DNA of 50,700 nt from a virus. The stretch's first letter is position 1. Every line of letters starts with the position of its first letter. The stretch lies in IMG/VR virus record IMGVR_UViG_3300032323_002680, positions 1-50,700 of that record, one strand, 5' to 3'. The notes under the pieces were generated by a model. It did no database searches. It worked only from the letters and a program-made list of their open reading frames with translations, and was not told where the DNA came from. Shown in pieces: positions 11,110 through 28,245 of the stretch. Both the position numbers and the translations under genes were made by a program.

Positions 11110-11115
11110 TCATCA

Positions 11116-11220
11116 ATGTGCTGGATATGTGGATGCGCTGACCATGTTGGGCCTGGAAATGAAAGAGAGCCTAAAACAGAGGTTGATCCTAATCAACTAA
11201 ATGCTATAATAGAGGAATAA
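11116..11220 (+). CDS. CxxCGC mini-peptide 1
   Basis: 34 residues starting MCWICGCADHVGPGNEREPK. The N-terminal CxxCGC is shared with the peptides at 11422 and 11514. It follows the radical SAM gene by six bases. Could bind a metal or be a modification substrate. Too short for standard gene finding, but the repeated motif supports it. Confidence 0.55.
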   Translation: MCWICGCADHVGPGNEREPKTEVDPNQLNAIIEE

Positions 11221-11267
11221 GTGGAATACTAGTCCCGCTTAAATAAACAACCTATAGGAGTAATAAC

Positions 11268-11420
11268 ATGTCAGACGGAAAAGATTTAAACGGATTTACA
11301 TCACCAAAGGTAAACGATTCAACAGTATGGGGAAATAACGAGCAGTATGCAGCTGATCCAAAGGCAGCATTCCCATCAACAGACGTTTCAAACCAAGCGC
11401 AGGCTCAAGGTCCAAAGTAA
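11268..11420 (+). CDS. Small hydrophilic hypothetical protein
   Basis: 50 residues, MSDGKDLNGFTSPKVNDSTV onward, rich in Asn/Ala/Gln/Pro and with no Cys. A clear Shine-Dalgarno (ATAGGAG) lies 8 bases upstream. It sits between CxxCGC peptides; function unknown. Confidence 0.6.
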   Translation: MSDGKDLNGFTSPKVNDSTVWGNNEQYAADPKAAFPSTDVSNQAQAQGPK

Positions 11421-11421
11421 T

Positions 11422-11514
11422 ATGTGCATTGAATGCGGTTGCGAAAGCGTAGGAAGCGAAACTGGAGTTAAAGAAGTTAACATCCAGGATGTATCAGATC
11501 AAAGGAATCAGTAA
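11422..11514 (+). CDS. CxxCGC mini-peptide 2
   Basis: 30 residues starting MCIECGCESVGSETGVKEVN. It begins one base after the previous stop and its stop overlaps the next ATG (TAATG). Paralogue of peptides 1 and 3 at the N-terminus only. Confidence 0.55.
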   Translation: MCIECGCESVGSETGVKEVNIQDVSDQRNQ

Positions 11515-11621
11515 TGTGTAAAGATTGTGGATGTGGTTTGGAGCAAGAAATTCAAAACGAATCTGCTGAGTCACCAGCTAGCAGAAACGTTGTGACAATA
11601 TCACAAATTAAGGGCGCATAG
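11514..11621 (+). CDS. CxxCGC mini-peptide 3
   Basis: 35 residues starting MCKDCGCGLEQEIQNESAES, ending VVTISQIKGA. Overlaps both neighbours by one base, so all these short genes are translationally coupled. Possible metal-binding peptide or modified precursor. Confidence 0.55.
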   Translation: MCKDCGCGLEQEIQNESAESPASRNVVTISQIKGA

Positions 11622-11803
11622 TGTCAGAAAATGTTGTAAACTCTGGAGAGGCAACAAAAAAGAATCCATCTCAGGGTAAATTTAAATCTGGCATACAACC
11701 AAAAAGACCACCAATTAAGATTGATGTCAATAAGCACGGAATTAGAAGAGAGACTCCAGCTGTTCCTCAAGCGCCTAGAAAAACTGGAAGAAAAAAAGTA
11801 TAA
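11621..11803 (+). CDS. Basic hypothetical protein
   Basis: 60 residues with pI clearly high (KRPPIKIDVNKHGIRR, RKTGRKKV), likely disordered and nucleic-acid binding. GTG start overlapping the previous stop (TAGTG); its own stop overlaps the next ATG. Confidence 0.6.
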   Translation: MSENVVNSGEATKKNPSQGKFKSGIQPKRPPIKIDVNKHGIRRETPAVPQAPRKTGRKKV

Positions 11804-11940
11804 TGCCTCCAAAAAAATTTGGCAGACAAATACCTTTTAACGATACGGTTATTCGTGATGGCAAAATAGTAAGATTAAGAAAAGACGGTAGGATAAAAGC
11901 TGTTGTTGGAGAATATACTCCAAAGCATCCTAAGAAATAA
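11803..11940 (+). CDS. Small basic hypothetical protein
   Basis: 45 residues starting MPPKKFGRQIPFNDTVIRDG, with a strand-turn-strand pattern (DGKIVRLRKDGRIKAVVGEY) and a basic end. Coupled to the preceding gene by TAATG. Function unknown. Confidence 0.6.
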   Translation: MPPKKFGRQIPFNDTVIRDGKIVRLRKDGRIKAVVGEYTPKHPKK

Positions 11941-11987
11941 CAACGCTCAATAATACATTAGCGTTACTTAAGGTTAGGTGTTTTAAG

Positions 11988-12815
11988 TTGATAATTAATG
12001 GTAATGAAGTAGAAGTAGAAAAGCTTCATGAAAAAGTTTGGGTTTTTAAAAATGTTTTTAAAAGCTCAAAGGAAATGCTAGATTTTTATTTAACAAACCA
12101 CAGCGATAAGTCCATTCCCTGGTATGAGTTTGGATTTCACATACTTATACCTACCAGAGCTAAATGCTTTGAGTCTTTCCCTACAGAAGATGAGTGGTCT
12201 GTTTTCTCAAGCGATCATTTTGCTGAAAGAGATGATGATATATCAAATAATAAATATGTGTCAGAGCTATTTAAAGTTTTTCATGAGTCCTCTAAAAATT
12301 ACTTTGATTCAGTAAAAGTTGACTATGATAACTTTTGTTGGGATTCTGTTGACATAGCCTACTATAAAGACGGCATGGGAGTAAACTCTGCTCAAGGAAT
12401 GAATTACCATACTGATTTTCAGGAAGAAAGAAGAAAAGACCCTGGACTAAAGTTTGGAACAACATGTCTTTTTTACTTAAATGATGATTATGATGACGGA
12501 GGAATAAACCTTATAGAGTTAAGCGATGATAAAGAAACTCTGATTAATCATATATTTTACAAGCCAGGCGCAGGCGATCTTGTAATGTTTCCTTCTGGAC
12601 ATCCCTTTTACCACAGCCCAATGATAGCTAAAAATGGCTCAAAGGCTCTCATAAGAGCTTATTGGAGGTATGAGTATCCAGGATCTGAAGATTGGCACAC
12701 GGAAAAATCTCAGCATACTGAAGAAGAGTGGAAAGACATACTCAGGGAAAGACATAAGGAAGGTTCATTTGCCCAGGGAAGAAGCCTAAACAAGTGGAAT
12801 GAGATGCATCTGTGA
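11988..12815 (+). CDS. 2-oxoglutarate/Fe(II)-dependent oxygenase
   Basis: 275 residues, TTG start. Iron ligands are His141-x-Asp143 (NYHTDFQ) and distal His209 (FYHSPM), with FYLNDDYDDGGINL and KPGAGDLVMFPSG between them. Larger than the other P4H-like copies owing to N- and C-terminal extensions. Its stop overlaps the sulfotransferase start, so the two enzymes are probably made together and may act on one substrate. Confidence 0.85.
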   Translation: MIINGNEVEVEKLHEKVWVFKNVFKSSKEMLDFYLTNHSDKSIPWYEFGFHILIPTRAKCFESFPTEDEWSVFSSDHFAERDDDISNNKYVSELFKVFHESSKNYFDSVKVDYDNFCWDSVDIAYYKDGMGVNSAQGMNYHTDFQEERRKDPGLKFGTTCLFYLNDDYDDGGINLIELSDDKETLINHIFYKPGAGDLVMFPSGHPFYHSPMIAKNGSKALIRAYWRYEYPGSEDWHTEKSQHTEEEWKDILRERHKEGSFAQGRSLNKWNEMHL

Positions 12816-13615
12816 AACAACTTTACTTTTTGCACATACCAAAAACAGCGGGGCAGTATATATCTAAAAATATAAAAGAGTCATTAGATAAAAATAATAT
12901 ACCTCATCATATTACTACCCATTTTCCAAATAACAATGGATTTGTTAATAAGCCTTATATATCTATGCATGCTGGCACTTATCCGATAGAAAAAGTTCCC
13001 AGTATTGACGTTGCAACTATAGTAAGAAATCCAATTGAGGCAAGGGTAAGTTACTTTAATTTTGTATACAATAGGGCTCTTTATAATAGGCCTGAGTATG
13101 CAGAAAAAAGTCTACCGATAGAAAAGCTAAGATACTATTTGTTTGAAGACCCTAACTTTGAACTACACAATAACTATCAATCTAGATTTATTTGTAATCC
13201 AGCAGACGAGAGATCTTTTAACCCCATGACCTTTTACAAAGATCATTACGAGGAGCTAATGTACCCGTTTTTAAAAAAGGGGGAAGCATTTACCTGGTTT
13301 GTAGAAAACGATCATACAACACTAGAAAACGCAATGTCTCAAATAAATAAGTTTAAGATAAAATCTACTTTAGACAACATAGACTTATTTAAACAAGAAA
13401 TAAATAGTTGGTTTAAAGATAACTATAACGTAGATATAAGGTTTGCAGAAAATAAGATTAACATAGGCACTGCTAATTATGGAGATGGAAATCTTATGTC
13501 TAGTTCAGAACTACTTAGCCTGCTAACAGATTCAGAAAAAGAAAAAATAATAGAAAATAACTACATAGACTATTCAGTATATAAGCACTTAAAGGAAATT
13601 GAAGATGAAAAATAA
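12812..13615 (+). CDS. Sulfotransferase family protein
   Basis: 267 residues, GTG start (GTGA overlap). HIPKTAGQYI near residue 8 is the PAPS 5'-phosphosulfate loop of Sulfotransfer_2-type enzymes, and IVRNPIEARVSYF is the 3'-phosphate loop. It should transfer sulfate from PAPS to a hydroxyl or amine, commonly on glycans. Flanked by oxygenases that could create the acceptor hydroxyl; that link is inference. Confidence 0.75.
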   Translation: MKQLYFLHIPKTAGQYISKNIKESLDKNNIPHHITTHFPNNNGFVNKPYISMHAGTYPIEKVPSIDVATIVRNPIEARVSYFNFVYNRALYNRPEYAEKSLPIEKLRYYLFEDPNFELHNNYQSRFICNPADERSFNPMTFYKDHYEELMYPFLKKGEAFTWFVENDHTTLENAMSQINKFKIKSTLDNIDLFKQEINSWFKDNYNVDIRFAENKINIGTANYGDGNLMSSSELLSLLTDSEKEKIIENNYIDYSVYKHLKEIEDEK

Positions 13616-14162
13616 TGTATCTAGTTATAGATATATAGACACATTTGATGTGTCTGAGATATCAAAATCAGTGTCTAGGTTTGATAAAGAGTGGGCTATT
13701 GATACAAGCAGGCAACATATGTTTAAAGAGCACAAAGACACATATACCTACATGATTCAAAACTTTCCTCTGGCGTGGACTCCAGGATCTGAGGTTAAGG
13801 TTGAGAAAAGGTATGCTGATGAAAGACACTACTTAGAAATAAAAGAATTAATTGAAAAGATTTTAGTTCTTAATCCTGGAATGGTCGCAAGAGTTATGTA
13901 CATTAAGCTTCCTGCTAAAAAAAATGTTCCACACCATAAGGATTCTGGATGGTATTTATCTAATGTTAAAAGATTTCATATACCAGTTTTAACAAACGAT
14001 AAGGTTTCCTACACAGTAAATGATGAGCTTAAGTTTATGAAAGTTGGTGAGTGTTGGGAGATAAATAACACTGCTTACCATTCAGTTTTTAACGATGGTG
14101 ATACCGATAGAGTTCATCTAGTGGTAGATATAATTCCAAAAGAGGTTTTAAATGAAAATTAA
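13605..14162 (+). CDS. Aspartyl/asparaginyl beta-hydroxylase-like oxygenase
   Basis: 185 residues. His111-x-Asp113 (PHHKDSGW) and distal His159 (AYHSVFN), with RFHIPVLTND and GECWEINN, match the Asp_Arg_Hydrox fold. Start taken at the ATG nine bases after AAAGGA; an upstream TTG (13599) is possible. Overlaps both neighbours, so it is part of one operon with the sulfotransferase. Confidence 0.8.
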   Translation: MKNNVSSYRYIDTFDVSEISKSVSRFDKEWAIDTSRQHMFKEHKDTYTYMIQNFPLAWTPGSEVKVEKRYADERHYLEIKELIEKILVLNPGMVARVMYIKLPAKKNVPHHKDSGWYLSNVKRFHIPVLTNDKVSYTVNDELKFMKVGECWEINNTAYHSVFNDGDTDRVHLVVDIIPKEVLNEN

Positions 14163-14688
14163 AACAGAATCAGTATTGAGCACAGAAGAATCTGCAGCCG
14201 TAATTGACTTTGTGCTTAACAACTTTGACAACGATAAGTTCTTTAAAAACAATGGTAACGCAAGAAGGTACTGCAGCGTGACTAATGTTGATACACCAGT
14301 AACAGATTATTTAAAAACAATAAGATCTCAAAAATTTAAAGAGATTGGAATAAATTCATTTTTAGAAGAGCCAGTTTATGGAATTTTTATAGGAGTAAAT
14401 GGTGAAAGTGGATTTGTACACCCACATAGAGATTCAACAATTGATGGTTACGAGCACTTTAGGCTTAACTTTTTAGTGTCCAAGCCAGATGGCGGTGGAA
14501 TGCCAGTGGTAGATGGTAAAGAGTACAGTATAGAAGAAGGACAGTCTTGGATAAACATTGCTTCTAAATGGGCTCACATGAGCACCCCAGTAGTAGGAAC
14601 AAAGAATAGAATAGTTTTAAGCTTAGGCGGTTATGTCAAAATAAGTGATGTTGATTTAGTTGTTAATTTACTAAATAAAGAAATATAA
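14152..14688 (+). CDS. 2-oxoglutarate/Fe(II)-dependent oxygenase
   Basis: 178 residues. His92-x-Asp94 (HPHRDST), FRLNFLVSKPDGGGMP and distal His142 (KWAHMST) followed by Arg in KNRIVLSLGGY fit the 2-oxoglutarate oxygenase core. Overlaps the preceding gene by 11 bases. Substrate unknown. Confidence 0.8.
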   Translation: MKIKTESVLSTEESAAVIDFVLNNFDNDKFFKNNGNARRYCSVTNVDTPVTDYLKTIRSQKFKEIGINSFLEEPVYGIFIGVNGESGFVHPHRDSTIDGYEHFRLNFLVSKPDGGGMPVVDGKEYSIEEGQSWINIASKWAHMSTPVVGTKNRIVLSLGGYVKISDVDLVVNLLNKEI

Positions 14689-14691
14689 GCA

Positions 14692-14720
14692 TTGACAATA
14701 TTATCCTAAGAATGTATAAT
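14692..14720 (+). promoter_or_regulatory. Consensus promoter TTGACA-N17-TATAAT, leaderless
   Basis: Perfect -35 at 14692-14697 and perfect -10 at 14715-14720 with 17 bases between, then six bases to ATG 14727. The clearest example of the leaderless class in this window. Confidence 0.85.
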
Positions 14721-14726
14721 AGTAGT

Positions 14727-14888
14727 ATGAATAACTTTATTATAATTGGACTAATTGTATTTGTTTTGTCAGCATATTTAGGCGTTAAGCTTTATCGAGA
14801 TATGTCTTTTATTTTTAATGCAAAAAGAATTCAAGAGCAATACAAAAAAGATAAATTTTGGGAAACCCAAGAATTTTTTGAAGAATAG
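14727..14888 (+). CDS. Small single-TM membrane protein
   Basis: 53 residues, N-terminal membrane helix MNNFIIIGLIVFVLSAYLGV, then a charged cytoplasmic helix rich in Lys/Glu/Phe. Directly downstream of a consensus promoter. Function unknown. Confidence 0.65.
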   Translation: MNNFIIIGLIVFVLSAYLGVKLYRDMSFIFNAKRIQEQYKKDKFWETQEFFEE

Positions 14889-14898
14889 GAATACTTAG

Positions 14899-15195
14899 AT
14901 GATAAAGCCATTCGGCAACCTTTTGTTAATTAAAGAAGATAAGGTAGAAGACAGAACCACATCTTCTGGAATAGTCCTTATGGCTTCATTAAGTGAGTCT
15001 AACCTAAGAACTGGAAAGATACTAGACTTAGGCAACGGAGAGTATAACTACAAAGGTGAGTTAATTCCTATAACGGGTCTTGAAGTTGATGATATTGTTT
15101 ATTACAATCAAAATAGCGGAACTGACATTGAAGATACAGATGGAGAAAAGTATTTACTTCTAAATACAAAAAGTGTGCTTGCAATAAAAGGATAG
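14899..15195 (+). CDS. GroES-like co-chaperonin (Cpn10)
   Basis: 98 residues. IKPFGNLLLIKEDKVEDRT opens the Cpn10 fold, TTSSGIVLM is the mobile loop that docks on GroEL, and VLAIKG closes the barrel, all at the usual family length. No GroEL is visible here, so it must work with the host chaperonin, as T4 gp31 does in capsid folding. Shine-Dalgarno is weak (AGGAATAC). Confidence 0.85.
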   Translation: MIKPFGNLLLIKEDKVEDRTTSSGIVLMASLSESNLRTGKILDLGNGEYNYKGELIPITGLEVDDIVYYNQNSGTDIEDTDGEKYLLLNTKSVLAIKG

Positions 15196-15198
15196 AGA

Positions 15199-15384
15199 TT
15201 GAGACCTAGATTTAAATTTAAAACTATATTAAAATCTGTTACATTGCAGGTTAAAACTAAGTGTCCAGAAAAATGGCTTTTGATTGATAGAGAAACTGGT
15301 GTAGCTTATCAGGGTAGCGAAAATGGTCATTGGGACAGGCTGGACCCAGTCATTAAAGAAGCAATAAACAAAGAGGTGCTATAA
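15199..15384 (+). CDS. Small basic hypothetical protein
   Basis: 61 residues, TTG start three bases after GroES, basic N-terminal half (RPRFKFKTILKSV) and a REtGVAYQGSENGHW segment. Probably co-transcribed with GroES. No family recognised. Confidence 0.6.
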   Translation: MRPRFKFKTILKSVTLQVKTKCPEKWLLIDRETGVAYQGSENGHWDRLDPVIKEAINKEVL

Positions 15385-15385
15385 T
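15380..15385 (+). promoter_or_regulatory. -10 box (TATAAT) for leaderless start at 15392
   Basis: TATAAT overlaps the previous stop codon, then six bases and ATG. Confidence 0.55.
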
Positions 15386-15391
15386 TATTCT

Positions 15392-16174
15392 ATGACTACT
15401 CCTATAATTCACGACATGCCTGGTGGCGTAATATACATAGAAAATGCATTTCCTAAAGCTAAAGAGTTTTTAGATTTTGTAGAATTAAACAACGAAAACC
15501 CTGAAATTTTAAAAGTTTTTCCATCATGGACTACATGGATTGATGGTTATCCAGTTAGCTTAGACCCATACGATATGACAAAATGGGAGCAGATATTCCC
15601 AGATAATGAACACTCTTTAAGAGGTGTGTCTAAGCTACTAGATTGGGATTTATCTTACAACGATAATAACAACTTTTGGCCAAGAAAAGATGTGTCTGAA
15701 CATGCTAGTAATAGCGTAGATCATCAGAAATCTTTGCCAGCTATTAAGATGATAGAAGATGACTACATAAACGCCTTAAAAATTTGGTCAGAAAAAACAA
15801 ATAATGATTTGCCTCACCACATAACCAGAAACTATTGTATTAGAAAGTATAGAACTGGCGGTGGCATGGGACCACATATAGATAGAAATATATTGAATCC
15901 AAAAAACACTATGGACTGGACATCTCTTATATATCTTAACGATAACTACGAAGGTGGAGAGATTGTCTTTGATGATCTTGGATATTCAATAAAGCCATCC
16001 GCAGGCAGCATAGTCTTTCTTCCCTGCTTAACCTCTCATTCAGTTAATGAAGTTTTGTCTGGAAATAAAACATACATCTTTTTATTCATGCACACTGGAA
16101 CAGGAATAACCTCAGCTTTGGGTGAACCTTACCACGCACTTGAAGAAGCTTTAATTAATTTTAATAAAAAATAA
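15392..16174 (+). CDS. 2-oxoglutarate/Fe(II)-dependent oxygenase
   Basis: 260 residues. His162-x-Asp164 (GPHIDRN) and distal His216 (TSHSVNE) with IYLNDNYEGGEIVF and KPSAGSIVFLPC identify a P4H-like oxygenase with a long N-terminal extension that may bind substrate. Own leaderless promoter; a consensus promoter follows its stop. Confidence 0.85.
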   Translation: MTTPIIHDMPGGVIYIENAFPKAKEFLDFVELNNENPEILKVFPSWTTWIDGYPVSLDPYDMTKWEQIFPDNEHSLRGVSKLLDWDLSYNDNNNFWPRKDVSEHASNSVDHQKSLPAIKMIEDDYINALKIWSEKTNNDLPHHITRNYCIRKYRTGGGMGPHIDRNILNPKNTMDWTSLIYLNDNYEGGEIVFDDLGYSIKPSAGSIVFLPCLTSHSVNEVLSGNKTYIFLFMHTGTGITSALGEPYHALEEALINFNKK

Positions 16175-16179
16175 ATCTA

Positions 16180-16208
16180 TTGACAGCATTTAGTTTATAT
16201 TATATAAT
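16180..16208 (+). promoter_or_regulatory. Consensus promoter TTGACA-N17-TATAAT
   Basis: -35 at 16180-16185 and -10 at 16203-16208 with a 17-base spacer, eight bases before ATG 16217. Confidence 0.8.
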
Positions 16209-16216
16209 AAACTATA

Positions 16217-16348
16217 ATGATAAAAAAAATAGTTTGCCGAATAGCTGGACATACTCTTGTTGATGCTGGAGCATGTCCCTATACAGGATCAACATATCAA
16301 TATTGTGAAAGATGCAAGTCCATGATTCCAATTCAGGTGGCTGTATGA
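16217..16348 (+). CDS. Tiny zinc-binding protein
   Basis: 43 residues; Cys7, His12, Cys19 and CERC near residue 30 could make one zinc site (MIKKIVCRIAGHTLVDAGAC). Read from a consensus promoter. The stop overlaps the next ATG. Confidence 0.55.
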   Translation: MIKKIVCRIAGHTLVDAGACPYTGSTYQYCERCKSMIPIQVAV

Positions 16349-16452
16349 AAGAGCCAAAAATAATGAAGATGGATTGGCGTTCATTAGGATATTGGCCAGT
16401 ATATAAAGATGGAAAGCTTACATGGGAAAAGGATCCAGAAAAAAATGATTGA
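16345..16452 (+). CDS. Tiny hypothetical protein
   Basis: 35 residues (MKEPKIMKMDWRSLGYWPVY and on), ATGA overlap with the gene before and 8-base overlap with the gene after. Trp/Tyr-rich. Supported mainly by coupling. Confidence 0.45.
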   Translation: MKEPKIMKMDWRSLGYWPVYKDGKLTWEKDPEKND

Positions 16453-16708
16453 TTGGTTAGTTAATCGCGTATTTAGATTCACATCTTTAAGACAAGCTAT
16501 CTTTGATGAAGTCCATCTGTATGATCATTTAGATAGCATTATGAGCGACCCAGAATCCATGGAGACAGCATCATTGAGTTGGTGTGAAGGAGATACATGG
16601 TATGGTTGGACACATGATAGTAACGCAAAGCGTTACTACTTTGACGATATTGGTAACAAATCCCTAATTGGATTATGGGAAGATCAATTCCTAAGCAAAG
16701 CAGAATAG
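16445..16708 (+). CDS. Hypothetical protein
   Basis: 87 residues with a basic N-terminus (MIDWLVNRVFRFTSLRQAIF) and an aromatic acidic C-terminal half. I chose ATG 16445 because the upstream ATG at 16409 lies deep in the preceding gene. No family recognised. tRNA-Arg begins four bases after the stop. Confidence 0.6.
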   Translation: MIDWLVNRVFRFTSLRQAIFDEVHLYDHLDSIMSDPESMETASLSWCEGDTWYGWTHDSNAKRYYFDDIGNKSLIGLWEDQFLSKAE

Positions 16709-16711
16709 AAT

Positions 16712-16782
16712 TTCAGGTTCCTATAATGGTCGTAGAGCGGTTTCCGAAACCGACAATGAAGGTCCGATTCCTTCACCTGGAG
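16712..16782 (+). tRNA. tRNA-Arg (anticodon CCG)
   Basis: Seven-pair acceptor stem TTCAGGT/ACCTGGA, short D arm, anticodon stem CGGT/ACCG with loop TTCCGAA (anticodon 16744-16746, reads CGG), T stem GAAGG/CCTTC with a seven-base loop. CCA is not encoded. Unusual first pairs (U-A, U-G) and a three-pair D stem lower certainty about function. Confidence 0.8.
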
Positions 16783-16786
16783 CATA

Positions 16787-17437
16787 ATGGATAGACATAG
16801 GGTAATTTACTTAGACGGACTAGAAAGATCTGGTAACGTATATTTGTCAGCTGTTATTGATAAATCTATGGATGTGCAAGTAAAAGCAGTAAGAAGTCAT
16901 GACATAAATACTCTTAAGCAGTACAAAAGGGCAAATCCATTTATAGTGCCAGTAAGAGATGCGTTTGCGTCAATAGCATCTTCTAAGGTATACAGAGACT
17001 ATGTTCACGCAAATGGTTTATATAACGATATAGATTCAGATAATAATAATTTAGATGTAATTATATTGAGGTACAAGGAGTACATAGATTACCTAATAAA
17101 GTCACCTAAATTTTTTATAGCCCCATTTCACCGTTTTACTGAAGATCACAACGAAACCTGTAAAAAAATTGTTAAGTTTTATGAAGATACCTCAGTGCTA
17201 TCTATAACAAGAGCCCTAACAAAAGAAGAGATGTTGGCAGAAATTCTATCAGATCAAAAATACTCTGATTGGGGAGACATGTGGTTTCACAAAGAGTTAG
17301 GAAATTTCCCTAGAAGCCAAAGTGAAAGTAAGGCGGAGGTAGAAAGTATTCTTGCAGACAAATACAGCAAAGATATTGAAGAGATACAGCGTGGAATAAA
17401 CATTCTATACCAGAGATACTATGATATTGAGATTTAA
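16787..17437 (+). CDS. Sulfotransferase-like protein
   Basis: 216 residues. GLERSGNVYLSAVI near residue 11 resembles the RSGT-type PAPS loop and IVPVRDAFASIASS the 3'-phosphate loop. The usual Lys/Thr of the loop is changed, so activity is uncertain. It starts four bases after the tRNA and its stop overlaps the next ATG (TAATG). Confidence 0.6.
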   Translation: MDRHRVIYLDGLERSGNVYLSAVIDKSMDVQVKAVRSHDINTLKQYKRANPFIVPVRDAFASIASSKVYRDYVHANGLYNDIDSDNNNLDVIILRYKEYIDYLIKSPKFFIAPFHRFTEDHNETCKKIVKFYEDTSVLSITRALTKEEMLAEILSDQKYSDWGDMWFHKELGNFPRSQSESKAEVESILADKYSKDIEEIQRGINILYQRYYDIEI

Positions 17438-17574
17438 TGCCTAAGCATTGGGAGGACAAATCTCAATGGATTACAAATTGTCCAATATGTTACTGTGCGG
17501 TTACCCACCAGTTAAGAGACTACCATATTCAATATCATGAAAATCAAACAAAAAATGATATAATATCTAAATGA
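17437..17574 (+). CDS. Small C2H2-type zinc finger protein
   Basis: 45 residues with CPIC near residue 16 and paired His (HIQYH) near residue 37, a plausible single C2H2 finger. Overlaps both neighbours (TAATG and ATGA). Could bind nucleic acid. Confidence 0.55.
   Translation: MPKHWEDKSQWITNCPICYCAVTHQLRDYHIQYHENQTKNDIISK
17559..17564 (+). promoter_or_regulatory. -10 box (TATAAT) for leaderless start at 17571
   Basis: TATAAT, six bases, ATG. It lies inside the end of the zinc finger gene. Confidence 0.55.
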
Positions 17575-18179
17575 AAGTACTATGTGTAAGCTTAGGCAGA
17601 AATGCAACCCAATCATTTGCTGAATTTGTAAAGGATCAGGGATTTAAAACAACTCATTTCTATAATATTCAAACAGTAAAATTAGGGGAATTTTCTGAAA
17701 ACGCTGAAGGAATACTAGATCACTTTAAATCATTGCCCTACTCTGATGCCCATGTTGATATGCCAACATGCCTAGTGTTTGATAGTCTGTATGAAATGTT
17801 TCCAGATGCTAAGTATATAAATATAACAAGGCCAGCTGAAGATTGGGTGGCTTCCATGATAAAGATGAAAAACCATTATATTGATAGAATGGGTATTAGT
17901 AGAGACCCTTTCCCATTCGAAGAAGCTTACTGTAATATGTATATTAAAACAGGTAAGAATAAGATTCAAGATCTTGACGAAGATGAGCTCTACGCAATAA
18001 GGCAAAAGCATTTAGACAAGGTAAAGGACTTTTTTAAAGATAAAAATAATTATCTAGAGGTTGAGCTGTCAGATCCAGAAATTGGTAAAAAGATAAAAGA
18101 ATTTATTGGTGGTACAGAAGATATTCCATTTCCAAATCATGATGGCTTTAGAAGAAAAAATTTCAGTCAACCACTTTAA
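17571..18179 (+). CDS. Sulfotransferase family protein (Sulfotransfer_4-like)
   Basis: 202 residues. VSLGRNATQSFAEFVKDQGF matches the GxGRTGTTS loop and helix of this family, and FPDAKYINITRPAEDWVASM the conserved core strand with the 3'-phosphate-binding Arg. Third sulfotransferase-like gene in the window, each from a different subfamily, which argues for several substrates or acquisitions. Confidence 0.7.
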   Translation: MKVLCVSLGRNATQSFAEFVKDQGFKTTHFYNIQTVKLGEFSENAEGILDHFKSLPYSDAHVDMPTCLVFDSLYEMFPDAKYINITRPAEDWVASMIKMKNHYIDRMGISRDPFPFEEAYCNMYIKTGKNKIQDLDEDELYAIRQKHLDKVKDFFKDKNNYLEVELSDPEIGKKIKEFIGGTEDIPFPNHDGFRRKNFSQPL

Positions 18180-18191
18180 ATAAATTAATGG

Positions 18192-18197
18192 TATAAT
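18192..18197 (+). promoter_or_regulatory. -10 box (TATAAT) with leader and Shine-Dalgarno
   Basis: TATAAT 25 bases before ATG 18223, with ATAAGGA as Shine-Dalgarno. A conventional, leadered start. Confidence 0.5.
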
Positions 18198-18222
18198 AGA
18201 TACCTAACGATAAGGATATATT

Positions 18223-18450
18223 ATGTGGTCTTGGATACTAGCAGCAATTGGTGTAACAGGAATATTTTTTGTGGGTCGTAAGGTTATATGGGCCTGGCTC
18301 TTATTGCTATTTAATGAATTCTTATGGATTGTTTATGCAGTTACAACTAAGCAATACGGTTTTATTTTTGCAGCCGTTGCTTATGCAGTTGTTTATATTA
18401 GATCTTACATACACTGGTCTAAGGAGCCAGTTAATAAAATTTCATTATGA
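18223..18450 (+). CDS. Small multi-pass membrane protein
   Basis: 75 residues with three likely membrane segments (about 3-20, 22-40 and 45-62), many Trp/Tyr, ending SKEPVNKISL. No family recognised. Overlaps the flavin monooxygenase gene by four bases (ATGA). Confidence 0.65.
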   Translation: MWSWILAAIGVTGIFFVGRKVIWAWLLLLFNEFLWIVYAVTTKQYGFIFAAVAYAVVYIRSYIHWSKEPVNKISL

Positions 18451-19250
18451 AAATGTACTGGTTTGAAAGAGACTTGCAAACAAATGAGTCTCTAGAGCGT
18501 AGAGTTAACGAGATGAAAAAAGCTGGGATAGATGGTGTCATGTACCCATTTGGATCCACAATGGGTGATTACTTTACCAAGATATCTAGAATAATTGATG
18601 TTAAAAGTAAGTTTAAATACATTATAGCAATTAGACCATACACAATATCAGCTCAATACCTATCAATGATATGCTCATCTATAAACAGCATATCCCCTAA
18701 CGTTCTTGCAATAAACCTTTTAACTGGATACATTAACAAACACGAGCAGGCATACGGAGGAATACTTTCAGAGCCAAATGACAGCTCTCCAAGCATAGTT
18801 AGATCTAATTTTATGCTTGAATACGCTAAAGAATTCAAAAAGATAAGCAATAACGAGTTCTTTGTTTCTACTACAAATGAAACTGTATTTAATAACTGTG
18901 CTGAAAATGGCTTTGCAATGATAGTTCCTTATGTCTGGTACAAGGCTAACCGATTTGACATAGAGGATCAGAAGGTTGTTATATCGATAGCCCCAGTGCT
19001 AAAAGACAACAAGGAGCACCATCATTACGAGTGCGATAATAACAATGAGTGTAGGCACCCAGCAGATGCTACATGCATGGATCTAGACTTTTTTACAACT
19101 GAAGAGTTCTTTGAGTTCTTAGACGATGCAGAAAAAAGAGGAATTCATGGGATGCTATTTCAAGAAGCTGACTATATAGCTCAAGAATATGAAAACATAT
19201 TACCTGCTATTACTGAATATAAAAGGCGAAAAAGTGAAGTCGAAAAGTAG
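18447..19250 (+). CDS. Luciferase-like (bacterial LLM family) monooxygenase
   Basis: 267 residues, TIM-barrel pattern. YIIAIRPYTISAQYLSMICSS followed by LAINLLTGYI closely resembles the strand/helix of LLM flavin enzymes such as SsuD (AVRPG...T...LNVVTG). These use reduced FMN and oxygen to oxidise substrates, including sulfonates. With three sulfotransferases nearby a sulfur link is attractive but unproven. The gene ends SEVEK in a 24-bp sequence repeated at the end of the gene at 19685. Confidence 0.7.
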   Translation: MKMYWFERDLQTNESLERRVNEMKKAGIDGVMYPFGSTMGDYFTKISRIIDVKSKFKYIIAIRPYTISAQYLSMICSSINSISPNVLAINLLTGYINKHEQAYGGILSEPNDSSPSIVRSNFMLEYAKEFKKISNNEFFVSTTNETVFNNCAENGFAMIVPYVWYKANRFDIEDQKVVISIAPVLKDNKEHHHYECDNNNECRHPADATCMDLDFFTTEEFFEFLDDAEKRGIHGMLFQEADYIAQEYENILPAITEYKRRKSEVEK

Positions 19251-19273
19251 AGACAGCCTAGTCACTACGTGAC
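19231..19273 (+). repeat. Repeat module copy 1: SEVEK tail plus palindrome GTCACTACGTGAC
   Basis: 24 bases ending in the stop codon region are identical to 20298-20321, followed by a perfect inverted repeat at 19261-19273. The second copy has a compensating change in the palindrome. Confidence 0.8.
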
Positions 19274-19297
19274 CAGTTTTACTTAACTGGGATATGC

Positions 19298-19303
19298 TAT
19301 AAT
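19298..19303 (+). promoter_or_regulatory. -10 box (TATAAT) for leaderless start at 19310
   Basis: TATAAT, six bases, ATG, located 25 bases after the palindrome of repeat copy 1. Confidence 0.55.
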
Positions 19304-19309
19304 AAGAGT

Positions 19310-19507
19310 ATGGAAAATACAATGGATTATTTATCAGACAACGAAGATGAAGACAAGTGGGACAACATTCAAAAAGCCTGTTGGAGCGGATACAAGCAGG
19401 TAGGAATGAAAGATAAGGGTGGCAAGCAAGTACCTAATTGCGTACCTATCAAGAAGTCACTATTCGGCACAGAAGGACCACAAGACCTCATACCTAGGAA
19501 TAAGTAA
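19310..19507 (+). CDS. Small conserved phage protein with GMKxKGGKxVPNCVP motif
   Basis: 65 residues. CWSGYKQVGMKDKGGKQVPN, then CVPIKKS, is a motif I know from many small phage proteins of unknown role. Acidic N-terminus. Leaderless promoter upstream. Confidence 0.65.
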   Translation: MENTMDYLSDNEDEDKWDNIQKACWSGYKQVGMKDKGGKQVPNCVPIKKSLFGTEGPQDLIPRNK

Positions 19508-19508
19508 T

Positions 19509-19679
19509 ATGGGTATATTGGATAACCTTGAAGCGGCCTTAGAGCGGGCGGAACAGGCAGATAAATGCTATTACTGCTCTAATCTAGCCAAATATACAGA
19601 TGTAGCTCATAAAGATCATAATAACTATGTAGTAGTAGGTGTATGCGAATGCCATGCATTTAAAGGATTAAGCTCTTAA
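19509..19679 (+). CDS. Small zinc-binding protein
   Basis: 56 residues: helical N-terminus MGILDNLEAALERAEQADKC, then CYYC and a CEC pair. AGGAATAAGT serves as a weak Shine-Dalgarno. Longer upstream extension of the frame is unlikely because it overlaps the preceding gene. Confidence 0.55.
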   Translation: MGILDNLEAALERAEQADKCYYCSNLAKYTDVAHKDHNNYVVVGVCECHAFKGLSS

Positions 19680-19684
19680 TATAA

Positions 19685-20317
19685 ATGATTCATAAAGTAA
19701 ATGACATTTTTACATCATCACAAGTAGAGTCATTAAATGAGATTGTTGATAGTCTTGTAATCCCAAAAGTCGACAACAGTCCAGGTAGCCAATACGTATC
19801 TTCAATTAATAATAATGGGACTGGTGTTTGTGAGGAGCTTGGCCGTCTTCAAGTAAGTGATATATGGTCTTCGGAAGAATTACTAAAAAAAATAAATCAA
19901 ATAGTCAGATCTTTGACCGATACGCCGCTATCCCTTAAGCACTCAATGTATGTAGAGTATAGCAATAAATACGGTATCCCAAACTTGCCACCACATTTTG
20001 ATAAAGATGATGGAGACTTAATAGTAAACTATCAGCTAAAATCTAATACATCATGGGGTGTTGGAGTTGGGCTTGACATCTATGATTTAGAAGACAATTC
20101 TGCTGTTATATTTAATGGAAACACTGATATCCATTGGAGACCTCATAAGGAATTTAAAGATAAAGATTATATAAGAATGATATTTTTTAGATTTCATAAT
20201 AGAGAAAATCCTTCAGATTATAGTCAACTCCCTGAAAACCAATCAGATATAGCATTTTCTGAAGCAATAAATCTTAGAGAAAGATTAATATTGACCGAAA
20301 GTGAAGTCGAAAAGTAG
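19685..20317 (+). CDS. 2-oxoglutarate/Fe(II) oxygenase-like protein
   Basis: 210 residues. His104-x-Asp106 (PPHFDKDD), distal His150 (DIHWRPH) and Arg in RMIFFRFH suggest the oxygenase core, more diverged than the other copies. Ends in the repeated SEVEK tail (ESEVEK), identical at DNA level to the end of the flavin monooxygenase gene. Confidence 0.65.
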   Translation: MIHKVNDIFTSSQVESLNEIVDSLVIPKVDNSPGSQYVSSINNNGTGVCEELGRLQVSDIWSSEELLKKINQIVRSLTDTPLSLKHSMYVEYSNKYGIPNLPPHFDKDDGDLIVNYQLKSNTSWGVGVGLDIYDLEDNSAVIFNGNTDIHWRPHKEFKDKDYIRMIFFRFHNRENPSDYSQLPENQSDIAFSEAINLRERLILTESEVEK

Positions 20318-20340
20318 AGACCCCCTTGTCAGTACCTGAC
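20298..20340 (+). repeat. Repeat module copy 2: SEVEK tail plus palindrome GTCAGTACCTGAC
   Basis: 24 bases identical to 19231-19254, then a perfect inverted repeat at 20328-20340. The arms differ from copy 1 by a paired C/G to G/C swap, so pairing is conserved. Confidence 0.8.
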
Positions 20341-20354
20341 ATAAATGTTATAAT
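20326..20354 (+). promoter_or_regulatory. Promoter TTGTCA-N17-TATAAT, leaderless
   Basis: -35 TTGTCA at 20326-20331 overlaps the palindrome of repeat copy 2; -10 at 20349-20354; six bases then ATG 20361. The palindrome may be an operator on the -35. Confidence 0.7.
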
Positions 20355-20360: not shown

Positions 20361-20570
20361 ATGCTGCAGAACTTAGAAATACCTGATCCCTTTGCTACTT
20401 TTGTGGCACATAAATATGCCAACTTTAAGGGAGCTAAATATGACTTCTTTAGCGGTGAATGGGATATGGTATGCGGTGCATGCGAAGAGCCATTAAACGC
20501 TCCAACTAAGAAGATATTGACTAAGATCAGGCTATATCACACTAGAAATGAATGTATGGGTGGATACTAA
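20361..20570 (+). CDS. Zinc-finger-like small protein
   Basis: 69 residues with CGAC near residue 38 and a His/Cys pair near the end (YHTRNEC), probably one zinc site. Overlaps the next gene by 19 bases. Function unknown. Confidence 0.6.
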   Translation: MLQNLEIPDPFATFVAHKYANFKGAKYDFFSGEWDMVCGACEEPLNAPTKKILTKIRLYHTRNECMGGY

Positions 20571-24415: not shown

Positions 24416-25140
24416 TATGCATCCGCCTTTTCCATAGAAGGTAATAATACCATGTGGGTCTGACAAATTGCCATAGCATCAAGGTCAGCATCATGGCTAA
24501 AGAAACAAGATGAACATATCTCGCCACAATCATTATCGCAATACTCAAATGTATCTGTTGCATCACAGTTGTTACATTTTGTATCATATGATGATTCTGA
24601 GATAACTTCTCCACGGAGGAATTCCATTTCTCCACCCCAACCTGTTTCTTCTTCATATACTAAAGTAAATAGTAGATTAGGGTATTGTGCAGATAGTTTA
24701 GATATAGCAGCAAGAGGTCTTGACCATGCCGTTTCAAAGTTGTAATAGACTACATAGTTCTCGCCATTCTCGGCTTCTTCCATATATGTAGTAGGACTAG
24801 TTTCTTCTTCTGTTACGGCAACATCCCACTTAGTTCCCCAGTTGCGGATATTCCAGTTGTACCAGTCATTAGTTTCAAACTTGTACCAATTCTTGTCGCC
24901 CACCGTACCAAAGTCGGGCTGGGAAAGATAAACCTCGTCAGTAACATTATCATCTATATAGTTATAGATGTTATGAAAACTAAAGATAGGATTAACATGC
25001 TTGATATGTTTAATCTCAAATGCTAAATCACCACGAGATTGAACTTTGCTTATATATGGCTTATTCATTTGTTTAATTAAAGATTTAACTTGGTCAGGAT
25101 TTCCTTCAATAGTTAAACCGTTATATACCCAATTTGGCAT
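24415..25140 (-). CDS. DUF1281/YubB ferredoxin-like domain protein with zinc-binding C-terminus
   Basis: 241 residues. MPNWVYNGLTIEGNPDQVKS, later NWGTKWDVA and FETAWSRPLAAISKLSAQYP, match the YubB/DUF1281 ferredoxin-like family of plasmids and phages. A C-terminal extension has CNNC, CDNDC and CSSC pairs, probably two zinc sites. Function of the family is unknown. The start follows the TGTCAG promoter at 25168; earlier ATGs lie inside it. Confidence 0.75.
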   Translation of the reverse strand: MPNWVYNGLTIEGNPDQVKSLIKQMNKPYISKVQSRGDLAFEIKHIKHVNPIFSFHNIYNYIDDNVTDEVYLSQPDFGTVGDKNWYKFETNDWYNWNIRNWGTKWDVAVTEEETSPTTYMEEAENGENYVVYYNFETAWSRPLAAISKLSAQYPNLLFTLVYEEETGWGGEMEFLRGEVISESSYDTKCNNCDATDTFEYCDNDCGEICSSCFFSHDADLDAMAICQTHMVLLPSMEKADA

Positions 25141-25167
25141 TTTATATCCTTTCGTTGATATGTGATA

Positions 25168-25190
25168 ATTATACATTGGACCACTGACAA
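25168..25190 (-). promoter_or_regulatory. TGTCAG-type promoter, copy 12
   Basis: TTGTCA at 25190-25185, 11 bases, TATAAT at 25173-25168. Confidence 0.75.
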
Positions 25191-25234
25191 ATGGAATAGA
25201 GTTGGCATGTGATACATGCCACATGATTCAGCTT

Positions 25235-25250
25235 TGTGGTCAACATCACA
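25235..25250 (-). promoter_or_regulatory. Degenerate CRP-type palindrome
   Basis: TGTGGTCAACATCACA differs by one base from TGTGA-N6-TCACA and, like the perfect copies, is followed by AATTCCAGGG. Confidence 0.45.
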
Positions 25251-25323
25251 GCAAATTCCAGGGAATATAATTGACAGTCGTAAAGACAATATGCTACCCT
25301 CATGTCTTTGAGGGCAAAGAAAA

Positions 25324-25346
25324 ACCCCCAGATCTTACCTGGGGGT
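25324..25346 (-). terminator. Rho-independent terminator
   Basis: On the reverse strand ACCCCCAG, loop, CTGGGGGT then TTTTTC. One of the best terminators in the window. Confidence 0.85.
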
Positions 25347-25448
25347 ATTGAATAATGGCTGCCTGGATTTCCAACGAAAGAAATAAACCCGCTTTACTTA
25401 GCGCCTGGCCCTAAGACTGATAGACGCACCATTATATTTCCTATTAAA

Positions 25449-25468
25449 ACCAGGACCTTAGTCCTAGT
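25449..25468 (-). terminator. Rho-independent terminator of the 25473 gene
   Basis: On the reverse strand ACTAGGAC-TAAG-GTCCTGGT followed by TTTTAAT, directly after the stop codon. Confidence 0.75.
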
Positions 25469-25472
25469 CTAA

Positions 25473-25838
25473 TTATACCATAACTAGTCGACTGTATTTG
25501 TCTACAAATGATGCTAAGGATGAACTAAATACAACCGTCTCTAAGTCTTCCTCGTATAATGTAAACGTTTGGCTAGCCCAATTAATCACAGGCACCTTAT
25601 GCTCATTGTCCCCCAATTGGTTGACATAGATACCCCACGATAATGTTTGGTTCCAATCTTCTCCAATTAGATGTGATATTGCAATGCGTGTTGCATATGA
25701 TGGGTCCTGCCATCTTGTCTCTGCAGCCTGTACAGCATTTGCTAGTTTTGCTAGCATGTCATATCCTGCCCAGTGCCCATACAAAAACACTGTATCACCC
25801 TTTTGGTCTTTAAACCCAAAGTTTGCTCTGTCTCCCAT
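25473..25838 (-). CDS. Conserved phage/actinobacterial hypothetical protein (MGDRANF family)
   Basis: 121 residues. MGDRANFGFKDQKGDTVFLY, GHWAGYDMLAKLANAV, RWQDPSYATRIAISHLIG and DNEHKVPVINWA are a recurring pattern in actinobacterial and actinophage proteins of unknown role. Compact alpha/beta pattern, full length. Overall arrangement suggests a regulator or host-takeover protein, but no function is known. Confidence 0.7.
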   Translation of the reverse strand: MGDRANFGFKDQKGDTVFLYGHWAGYDMLAKLANAVQAAETRWQDPSYATRIAISHLIGEDWNQTLSWGIYVNQLGDNEHKVPVINWASQTFTLYEEDLETVVFSSSLASFVDKYSRLVMV

Positions 25839-25839
25839 T

Positions 25840-26040
25840 TTATTCCGCCTTTTCTAAAGTAGGTAGTGCTGGTTCTTTCTTGTCTAATTCTATCACTTCA
25901 TAGGCGACCTTGTCTAGGCCTGCCTTATTTTTGTTGTAGTGGTGACCGCAAAAAGCTAGTTCGCCTTCTACTAGTTTAATTAAATACATTGCATCTGCTG
26001 ATCCACATGAATCGCAAGGAATGAATTCTCTGTCTCTCAC
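25840..26040 (-). CDS. DUF7455-like zinc protein
   Basis: 66 residues. CDSCGSADAMYLIKLVEGEL, AFCGHHYNKN is the C-x2-C...C-x2-H-like pattern of a small family common in Actinobacteria. GTG start overlaps the upstream stop (GTGA). Function unknown. Confidence 0.7.
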   Translation of the reverse strand: MRDREFIPCDSCGSADAMYLIKLVEGELAFCGHHYNKNKAGLDKVAYEVIELDKKEPALPTLEKAE

Positions 26041-26183
26041 AGAGCACCGCCTTCGATCATCTCAGAAAGACGGTCAAGAATCCAAGAATCAATATCGTTG
26101 ATATCAATTTCTGATAACTTCTCCATTATTTCTTCACGAGCAAACTTATACCCGTCATCCCATCCATCCTTATACTCTGACAT
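26037..26183 (-). CDS. Small acidic hypothetical protein
   Basis: 48 residues: MSEYKDGWDDGYKFAREEIM, a pattern seen in many small phage proteins (GWDDGY...ARE), ending EMIEGGAL. AAGGAGAG Shine-Dalgarno. Coupled to the DUF7455 gene by GTGA. Confidence 0.65.
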   Translation of the reverse strand: MSEYKDGWDDGYKFAREEIMEKLSEIDINDIDSWILDRLSEMIEGGAL

Positions 26184-26192
26184 AATCTCTCC

Positions 26193-26396
26193 TTAATAAC
26201 CTGTGGTTTCGTAGTCTGATACATAAGATTCAGTTAAGTTATACTTATCTCTAAGTCTACTTACTTTCTCAATACTACCAGTTCCAATGTTGAATGTCAA
26301 TGGAGACATTGCTTGCGGGTCGAGCCCTGTGATTTGTGCATCCCAATAGGCCCTCTCCATGGAGAGCCTATCAGGAGCGGTGAGTTCAAAATACAT
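26193..26396 (-). CDS. Hypothetical protein
   Basis: 67 residues (MYFELTAPDRLSMERAYWDA), start coupled to the upstream stop by TAATG. Mixed alpha/beta, no family recognised. Confidence 0.65.
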   Translation of the reverse strand: MYFELTAPDRLSMERAYWDAQITGLDPQAMSPLTFNIGTGSIEKVSRLRDKYNLTESYVSDYETTGY

Positions 26397-26812
26397 TAGT
26401 CCACCTCTACTGAATCGATAGATGATGACATATATGTAATAGGCTCATCATAAGATACTGTGTCAAAGTCTGTTTCGTGAATTGCATTGATAGCAGACTC
26501 CTCGTCACGAGCATTAACTGTAACTGAATATTGTACTGTTACAGTCAACTCAAATTCATTTGTAAGTTCGAACCCACAGATGCTTGCAATCTCTTCTGCT
26601 TGAAACTCAGTCAATGAATCATCATCAAGGCCCTCTAGTGTAAAGACCTTCATGTTATCACGTAACTGATTCAGAACGCTTGCAGTATTGTAATCTCGTT
26701 GAGTTACACGCTGGATGTGCTCTTCCAACTGTGTAATGCGGGCCTTGTTCTCAACTAACTGTGACTCAAGGAATTCTCGTGTCATGTAGTGATTATCTGT
26801 TGTTGTTTCCAT
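26396..26812 (-). CDS. Short form from internal start
   Basis: 138 residues starting METTTDNHYMTREFLESQLV. Typical leader with CAACAACGAAAGAGGAT before the ATG and a TGTCAG promoter upstream, all inside the long form's frame. Likely the main product, with the long form as an in-frame N-terminal extension. Function unknown. Confidence 0.65.
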   Translation of the reverse strand: METTTDNHYMTREFLESQLVENKARITQLEEHIQRVTQRDYNTASVLNQLRDNMKVFTLEGLDDDSLTEFQAEEIASICGFELTNEFELTVTVQYSVTVNARDEESAINAIHETDFDTVSYDEPITYMSSSIDSVEVD

Positions 26813-27013
26813 TTTATCCTCTTTCGTTGTTGTTGGTGTAATTGTAGCATGCTCCACTGACAATAATGTGGTCTTGCGTCCGCATGGGCATGTGAGCGTT
26901 GTCACACCTGAAGGAAAGCCAAATCCATCAGATGATGTTAGTTCTATTAATGAATCACATTCATCTGGGTCACAGACAAATGTATACTTGCTTGATACTA
27001 GTTCGTTGGTCAT
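26396..27013 (-). CDS. Two-part protein with internal promoter and start (long form)
   Basis: 205 residues from ATG 27013, which lies seven bases after a TATAAT (leaderless). The first ~55 residues carry CDPDEC and CPCGRK, a zinc ribbon. They run in frame through what looks like another gene's promoter and leader (THITPTTTKEDK-like linker) into a second domain from Met68. That domain has a coiled-coil and strand pattern (YSVTVNARDEESAINAIHET). The second part alone can be made from the internal promoter at 26841-26863 and ATG 26812. Confidence 0.65.
   Translation of the reverse strand: MTNELVSSKYTFVCDPDECDSLIELTSSDGFGFPSGVTTLTCPCGRKTTLLSVEHATITPTTTKEDKMETTTDNHYMTREFLESQLVENKARITQLEEHIQRVTQRDYNTASVLNQLRDNMKVFTLEGLDDDSLTEFQAEEIASICGFELTNEFELTVTVQYSVTVNARDEESAINAIHETDFDTVSYDEPITYMSSSIDSVEVD
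26841..26863 (-). promoter_or_regulatory. TGTCAG-type promoter, copy 11 (inside the long form)
   Basis: TTGTCA at 26863-26858, 11 bases, TACAAT at 26846-26841. Confidence 0.75.
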
Positions 27014-27020
27014 GAAGAGA

Positions 27021-27043
27021 ATTATACAGGATCCGACTGACAT
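27021..27043 (-). promoter_or_regulatory. TGTCAG-type promoter, copy 10
   Basis: ATGTCA at 27043-27038, 11 bases, TATAAT at 27026-27021, then seven bases to ATG 27013. A CGTAA element lies upstream at 27077. Confidence 0.75.
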
Positions 27044-27114
27044 TATCAAGGATTTCCAGGGGATTTTTATGTGAGTCGTAACACACTTTTTGCCCCCTTA
27101 GCTTTGAGGGCGCT

Positions 27115-27191
27115 TGGCGATCCATAACGGACTTGAACCGTCGACCTCTACCGTGACAGGGTAGCGCTCTAACCAACTGAGCTAATGGACC
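27115..27191 (-). tRNA. tRNA-Asp (anticodon GTC)
   Basis: Reverse strand cloverleaf with acceptor GGTCCAT/ATGGATC, D arm AGCTCAGTTGGTTAGAGC, anticodon stem CTACC/GGTAG with loop CTGTCAC, T arm GACGG-TTCAAGT-CCGTT and encoded GCCA end. All positions are canonical, so it should be functional. Confidence 0.95.
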
Positions 27192-27192
27192 T

Positions 27193-27224
27193 AAAAAATT
27201 GTGAGCAGTTTTTATTCATGCTCA
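27193..27224 (-). terminator. Terminator of the DUF932 gene
   Basis: On the reverse strand TGAGCA, loop, TGCTCA then CAATTTTTT, between the gene at 27238 and tRNA-Asp. Confidence 0.7.
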
Positions 27225-27237
27225 GGAATTTATTTAT

Positions 27238-28245
27238 TTAGAACGCAGAAATTAATTTCTTAATTTTATTTTTTTCTGCGGTTAGAATTGGGTCAAACCC
27301 TGATGCACCCGCCATGAGTGTTTCAGAATTTCCACGACCTGAACGATAGTAATCAAGGCGTTCAGTAAGTGCATTGAATGCACCCCACTTTGTTCCCTTG
27401 ATGTTAGCGTTAGTTGGTGAGTTGTGATACAACTCGTCAAGCAACACGACTTTGTTTTCCCACTTAGTCAATGCAACTTTAGCAGCATCCTTGTCAGGCT
27501 TAGGATAAATTGTCTGAATTAACTTTGAGAATTCAGCATCAGTGATTGATTGAGAATAAAGAGCCTGAGCCTCTTTCTCGAATTCATCAAAGTAACCAAG
27601 AGCAAGCCCAAGAGTTTCACGAGCAACTTGGATGCGACCTTCAACAGATTGCGTGTGGCGAATCTTGAAAGATTGCTTAGCATTCTTCATTGCAAGATTG
27701 AGAGTGTTTTGGCATACAACACGAACAGGAGTAACAGCAGCCTGAACAGCAACTGACCCGTCATGAGATGTCCAAACAATTAGATACAACTTAGTTGCAT
27801 CATTTGCGCCTTGTGGGTCAAGCACCATTGTGCGAGGAATATCCACTGTACCGAATACAACCTTACCGCTACGAAGTGAGCCAGCAGATTCCCAACGGCA
27901 ATCAGCATTAGCATCATGAATTGCATCAGCAAATGCGAATAGTTCCTCATTCTGCACAGGCTTGTAACGCTTTCCAACAGTTGCAAGAACATCAGTTCCA
28001 TTGTTGAATGGGTTGTCACGAATAACTAATTGAGCATTAGATACATCATTCCATGTATCTGAGATGTGGTCAGTTAGTGGAGACAGGCGAACATTCCAAT
28101 TAGAAAGTTTTGCCTCATCTAACATCATTTGAGTTGTGACATCTTCATCTTGTGTAAAGATGCGATTTGCAAGGTTGTGCCATGCAGGTGCGCCACGAAG
28201 TGCGAATGCAACTTCGCCATTTTCCATTTCTAGATTATGAGCCAT
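27238..28245 (-). CDS. DUF932 phage/plasmid-like protein (TIGR03299 type)
   Basis: 335 residues. WHNLANRIF, VGKRYKPVQNEELFAFADAI, RSGKVVFGTV, YLIVWTSHDGSVAVQAAVTP and RVVCQNTLNLA are the hallmark motifs of the DUF932 family found on phages and plasmids. Full length. Biochemical function is unknown; DNA-related roles have been suggested. Promoter copy 9, a CRP-type site and a DnaA-box pair lie upstream. Leader ends AACGAAAGGTAAAAA before the ATG. Confidence 0.85.
   Translation of the reverse strand: MAHNLEMENGEVAFALRGAPAWHNLANRIFTQDEDVTTQMMLDEAKLSNWNVRLSPLTDHISDTWNDVSNAQLVIRDNPFNNGTDVLATVGKRYKPVQNEELFAFADAIHDANADCRWESAGSLRSGKVVFGTVDIPRTMVLDPQGANDATKLYLIVWTSHDGSVAVQAAVTPVRVVCQNTLNLAMKNAKQSFKIRHTQSVEGRIQVARETLGLALGYFDEFEKEAQALYSQSITDAEFSKLIQTIYPKPDKDAAKVALTKWENKVVLLDELYHNSPTNANIKGTKWGAFNALTERLDYYRSGRGNSETLMAGASGFDPILTAEKNKIKKLISAF

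Follow-up and report, generated by a model that had tools for sequence, protein, structure and literature searches.

The window, by which we mean the whole 50.7-kb virus record analysed here, contains an exactly shared stretch of 24 bp, AAAGTGAAGTCGAAAAGTAGAGAC, at 19231-19254 and 20298-20321. Features around these two copies are listed below, with E-left denoting the left block of the element (E) to which the repeat belongs.

18447-19250, plus strand: gene of 267 aa (family F56), no assigned function, 3' end running into copy 1 (..KRRKSEVEK and stop; ORF list)
19231-19254, plus strand: E-left of copy 1, the 24-bp repeat including SEVEK-TAG
19261-19273, plus strand: hairpin of copy 1, GTCAC-TAC-GTGAC
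19298-19303, plus strand: -10 hexamer TATAAT of copy 1 with TG extension (TGcTATAAT), read from the sequence
19310-19507, plus strand: gene of 65 aa (F22), right of copy 1 (ORF list)
19509-19679, plus strand: gene of 56 aa with CxxC (F7)
19685-20317, plus strand: 2OG-Fe(II)-oxygenase-like gene of 210 aa (F85), ending ..LTESEVEK and stop inside the element (ORF list)
20298-20321, plus strand: E-left of copy 2, the same 24 bp as in copy 1
20326-20354, plus strand: candidate sigma-70-type promoter of copy 2, TTGTCA-17-TATAAT, with the -35 within the left arm of the hairpin (consensus scan)
20328-20340, plus strand: hairpin of copy 2, GTCAG-TAC-CTGAC
20361-20570, plus strand: zinc-ribbon-like gene of 69 aa (F2), usual right neighbour of copy 2

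As the preliminary description had noted, two genes that are unrelated to each other, F56 and F85, end in the same 24 bases with the tail SEVEK and a stop, and these bases are followed by GTCAC-tac-GTGAC in one case and by GTCAG-tac-CTGAC in the other. Only the first 20 bases are coding (K/E-SEVEK and TAG), the remainder lying past the stop. The 22-bp core of the repeat, with up to three mismatches allowed, was found twice in the window and not once in 100 shuffles, which rules out a chance origin. The palindromes alone were not rarer than chance, with 13 matches in the window at up to two mismatches versus 11 expected. Hence, their significance derives from position and comparison. The F56 gene had no match in Pfam or PHROG; its relatives were found in 6 loci, and one of them, 49% identical, likewise ends in KSEAEK and stop. 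F85 matched phrog_2954 weakly (E 6.8e-6) and represents cargo between F7 and copy 2. In other phages F7 is located directly left of the copy-2 element, and no relative of F7 was found among phage records. Copy 2 is the usual element in front of F2, into which F85 reads, and copy 1 goes with F56. Many further cargo genes are located at 2221-20317 and 33741-37573 of the window, among which a 2OG-Fe(II) oxygenase and a sulfotransferase were confirmed by Pfam and others are similar by eye. The F5 zinc-finger gene at 17437-17574 presents another swapped tail, its last ~10 residues being wholly different between relatives.

Each copy had been proposed to precede a leaderless promoter. This applies to copy 2, where TTGTCA (20326-20331) is separated by 17 nt from TATAAT (20349-20354) and where the palindrome overlaps the -35, as originally described. 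Copy 1 offers only an extended -10, with TATAAT 6 nt before the ATG at 19310 and thus near-leaderless; the consensus scan, which requires a -35, listed none for this copy, whose palindrome does not serve as a -35. Elsewhere many copies, not all, are followed by such a sequence.

The ribonucleotide reductase of the window is closest to those of ~131-kb Streptomyces phages (66% identity), and the F0 gene has matches in phages of actinobacteria only. From these two genes we take the virus to be an actinophage; a T4-like origin, our first guess, was ruled out by the same matches. Base composition and the kind of relatives suggest a freshwater habitat and a low-G+C actinobacterial host. A host or prophage origin of the repeat was ruled out as well, since the 19-mer was absent from genome_contigs and the type II pattern gave 5 scattered matches in unrelated phyla, which is chance level. 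Other repeats are present in the window. Four copies of a ~47-bp repeat (28353-28399, 30132-30178, 31414-31460 and 32303-32349, within 28351-32349) carry paired TTATCCACA/TGTGGATAA sites that resemble DnaA boxes and may mark a replication origin region. A promoter-like repeat family with at least 8 copies lies on the minus strand at 24441-33306 (reverse complement AATGTCAGACCCC..TGCTATAATTAC), and short tandem repeats occur at both contig ends (1-123 and 50521-50700) and in the coding region 9154-9258.

Searching for the repeat at gene ends in other phages, as the preliminary description had suggested, was productive: an exact scan retrieved the 22-bp core from 42 viral contigs, mostly as a single copy per record. 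The view of the tag as a gene-end module stands insofar as genes end in SEVEK by running into it, but in most contigs it is non-coding. The core occupies one syntenic place, with variable genes on the left and either the 69-aa F2 or the 114-aa F14 on the right; where a second copy is present, it follows F56 or, in one case, a different gene. Genes reading into the core have their stop within it, either in the SEVEK frame (F56, F85, L141 and F5 types) or in another frame (L077 and L080). Distinct left neighbours of the same element comprise F7, F50, F43, F85, F56, an F5-type zinc finger, two unrelated single genes and an inverted F71, and at one locus (L047) the element lies between divergent genes. 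Diverged relatives of F2 have diverged elements upstream.

A degenerate scan added further elements in 93 stretches, some of them chance matches. The contigs are metagenomic with many near-duplicates, and removal of duplicates left 116 contexts, of which a few are chance matches. The common form of E is (TGATCGC)AATTAGTG..CGGCGGTAGAGA, followed by the hairpin. A hairpin was present in 80 of the 116 contexts and lacking in 36; a fitting promoter-like sequence, near-leaderless and with a hairpin arm doubling as -35, was found in 59 of the 80. Since 36 contexts are devoid of a hairpin and 21 of these have an ATG within 17 nt, hairpin and promoter are not obligatory parts of E. A stop codon of a sense ORF lies between -45 and +25 nt in 85 of the 116 contexts (27 inside or at E-left), compared with 20% of random positions. 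Several unrelated genes end in IDRN and stop or a like tail, because AATTAG of E serves as their stop. Covariance models R1 and R2, trained on members of the E family, detected 1-3 strong copies in each record, on a single strand and for the most part within a few kb of each other, so that exchange is local rather than genome-wide. The repeat of the window belongs to a family of gene-junction elements in actinophages, probably of freshwater, situated in a variable small-gene region of ~100-115-kb genomes. Arrays resembling E-left (AGTGCGAAAA repeated, then GGCGA..AGAACC) were observed on the minus strand of the window at 35333-35404 and at L307-L312; several records carry them 14-16 kb downstream and on the strand opposite to E. 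The complementary strand of the window array reads as a GCGGC..GCCGC-ACTTTTT terminator after ORF 35180-35374.

Flanking sequences were compared for 27 contexts with 310-nt flanks, for which the random identity level is 0.52. In 65 pairs the right flank was shared (at least 0.75 identity) with the left at random level, and in 15 pairs the left flank was shared (at least 0.70) with the right at random; owing to near-duplicate contigs these pairs are not independent events. The joint is visible base by base between L077 and L083 and between the window and L066. L077 matches L083 from the 22-mer onwards to the right, whereas their sequences to the left are unrelated; L066 and L083 have F56 and the tag in common and differ beyond. 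The recurrence of this pattern in different contigs argues against assembly artefacts. The type of E-left does not follow the F2 gene, the same type being found at 0.69 F2 identity and different types at 0.96. The F9 junction has the promoter whether or not E is there, E-left and palindrome coming and going together, and F5 tails likewise occur both with and without E. Gain and loss of E have thus taken place between identical neighbours, and E is a two-sided homology joint, with the same right side joined to unrelated left genes and the reverse. The recombining cassette joint proposed at the outset, at which genes could be swapped, is supported by unrelated genes joined on either side of the same element.

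In a set of 27 distinct hairpins that was anchored on a loop motif, compensatory changes occur and 134 of 135 stem cells are paired; pairing dropped to 16-35% when the arms were slid, and 0 of 2000 shuffles reached the observed value. A sequence-based alignment gave 97.3% paired stem cells versus 76.5% in shuffled data, a value attained by 0 of 500 shuffles and destroyed by sliding, and RNAalifold on 31 elements predicted the E hairpin alone. Observed stems include GTCAG, GTCAC, GACGG, GACAG, GCCAT, TCCAC and TCAAC. Stem letters thus vary at every position; the loop is TAC in 23 of 27 hairpins, and each of the three wobbles in the stems is T-G when read on the sense strand, with no A-C among them. 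The stem-preserving paired change between the two window copies is accordingly part of a covariation extending over 27 alleles, but it is not one local compensatory mutation. GTCAG or GACGG precedes F2 and GTCAC or GCCAT precedes the 65-aa gene; copy 1 has GTCAC, the allele found before the 65-aa gene elsewhere (L237), and F2 in the window has GTCAG. The allele follows the right-hand gene and the tag is joined to both, so that the window contains one tag with two right-hand hairpins. Minimum-energy folds of E-left, which varies in length, were weak and inconsistent. The idea that GUA in E-left pairs with the UAC loop was discarded, as copies with GGGAG and a TAC loop exist. Upstream of F2 in L157, L160, L162 and L163, E is replaced by a 9-bp hairpin, GGGGCAGTC-tatt-GACTGCCCC (a variant in L157), whose right arm carries the -35 of the next promoter.

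Taken together, we consider it likely that E is a cassette at gene boundaries, equipped with a hairpin and in many copies with a promoter, similar to but distinct from the PeSL cassettes of T4-type phages, and that flanking genes are exchanged at it. We regard the family, the covarying hairpin, the place at gene ends, the two-sided joints and the gain and loss of E as established. Its parts are the conserved E-left block, about 20-40 nt long and placed at a stop codon or shortly behind it, and, in about two thirds of contexts, a covarying 5-6-bp hairpin with a TAC loop; in most hairpin copies an arm also provides the -35 of a candidate near-leaderless promoter that would serve the following gene. 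Since many junctions, in one phage or in different ones, have E in common, recombination between homologous copies could replace the left or the right gene, as the joints suggest. Incoming genes that have lost their own stop would continue into E and terminate at one of the stops it supplies (AATTAG, AGTGA or ..GTAG), which would give unrelated proteins the same tails (SEVEK or IDRN and stop). Consensus and spacing suggest that the candidate promoters fire, and the hairpin may act in the read-through mRNA of the upstream gene as an end, processing or coupling signal. A bolder proposal, which we put forward tentatively, is that E represents a structured phage RNA of a kind not described before. 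Its UAC-loop hairpin, preceded by a conserved block at the stop codon, would be recognised by a phage factor where genes meet, and the conservation of the element would at the same time let crossovers occur there in a region of cassette exchange.

Among the alternatives, a structured RNA is the most serious, although we consider it doubtful as the primary role. E would then mainly be a new signal for end, processing or translation coupling in read-through or polycistronic mRNA, bound by a phage factor, with gene swapping as a by-product; as to anatomy this is compatible with the cassette. It would account for the covarying stem with its constant TAC loop and sense-strand wobbles, for the fixed orientation at sense gene ends, and for L219, L225, L252 and L267, where a sequence resembling a Shine-Dalgarno site, and no promoter, comes after the hairpin. 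The weak folding and variable length of E-left argue against it, as do the divergent genes at L047 and the outcome of the Rfam 15 search, in which no covariance model matched at gathering score and sub-threshold matches were consistent with chance. Termination is not supported, since the hairpins are short and without a U-tract: the stem has 5 bp, neither a GC-rich stem with a T-run nor a U-run was found in copy 2 and most relatives, and copy 1 fits the terminator scan only loosely.

The shared operator or hairpin that had also been envisaged survives in part, as the pairing is conserved, but an operator is rather unlikely. Under this explanation a phage or host repressor or activator would bind the palindrome over the -35, E-left would be a second protein site, and sharing would define a regulon. 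The overlap with the -35 in copy 2 and in the 59 hairpin contexts fits, and E resembles an added regulatory layer at the F9 junction, where the promoter persists without it. A site read by sequence should, however, display the reverse of variable stem letters and a near-constant TAC loop. Furthermore, 21 hairpins lack a fitting promoter, which also rules out the -35 as sole cause of the palindrome, and there are only 1-3 copies per genome. An RNA hairpin therefore seems to fit better than a protein-read operator, a choice based on small numbers, namely loop conservation and three wobbles.

An origin of E as the 3' end of the F5 zinc-finger family, left as a remnant after replacement of F5 by other genes, is improbable. 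The tails of some F5 genes do consist of E read as coding sequence, e.g. HENLTAISEVEK and stop, and ..ISEVGENREIPVNYVDTTDGIID with GTCAAC-TAC-GTTGAC in frame, but others, including that of the window, are without E, the lengths of E-left break the frame, and many genes other than F5 are followed by E. Least probable is a small MITE- or REP-like mobile element inserting at gene ends: presence or absence between the same genes, acquisition of E tails by unrelated genes and short direct repeats (CTA, GAYC) flanking some copies would agree with it, but filled and empty sites revealed by eye neither terminal inverted repeats nor a constant target duplication, the few copies share a single orientation to genes, and promoter parts are kept in alleles without E.

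As a gene-boundary cassette, E would explain C-terminal tails common to unrelated proteins and would couple gene exchange to a ready hairpin and a candidate promoter. In isolated phages of the abundant freshwater actinobacteria, two regions of the genome vary extremely, which has been attributed to recombination (PMC10202952), and E offers a concrete, searchable joint for a variable region of this kind. The covarying TAC-loop hairpin itself is a new candidate structured element.

T4-type phages reportedly contain PeSLs (promoter-early stem-loops), mobile regulatory cassettes that are said to mediate gene shuffling (attributed to Arbiol 2010 and Comeau 2014, which PMC4503421 cites). As these are generally described, E resembles them as a short intergenic module combining a gene-end stem-loop with the promoter of the next gene and common to unrelated genes at shuffled joints; promoter-like sequence over the hairpin, seen in 59 of 80 contexts, might correspond to their joined early promoter and stem-loop. 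In contrast to PeSLs, E occurs in actinophages, its hairpin overlaps the -35 without a U-tract, it is preceded by the conserved E-left block that supplies stop codons, its copies are few and its promoter is optional. We did not file E as a PeSL, since it has no U-run terminator and, judging from ribonucleotide reductase and F0, does not reside in a T4-type myovirus genome. The stoperators of mycobacteriophage L5, 13-bp repressor sites in many copies, are likewise asymmetric and oriented with transcription, but are not known to have a covarying hairpin. The conserved ~58-bp intergenic repeats in the early-middle region of halovirus HF2 are described as carrying promoters (PMC8707807), which shows that such repeats can be promoters; theirs are archaeal, and in the part of that source considered here neither a covarying hairpin nor a gene-end joint is reported. 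In cluster K mycobacteriophages, the 13-bp SAS (GGGATAGGAGCCC) is tied to start codons, with an inverted repeat with 17-bp arms upstream (PMC3203893, where stoperators serve as a contrast). E differs in that E-left lies at stop codons, the hairpin has 5 bp and is located downstream, and the consensus is unrelated to that of SAS. Both systems combine an asymmetric block with an inverted repeat in actinophages, keep mainly to one orientation, mark junctions where gene families change, and are not common in hosts (PMC3203893). SAS/ESAS is the closest actinophage parallel to E.
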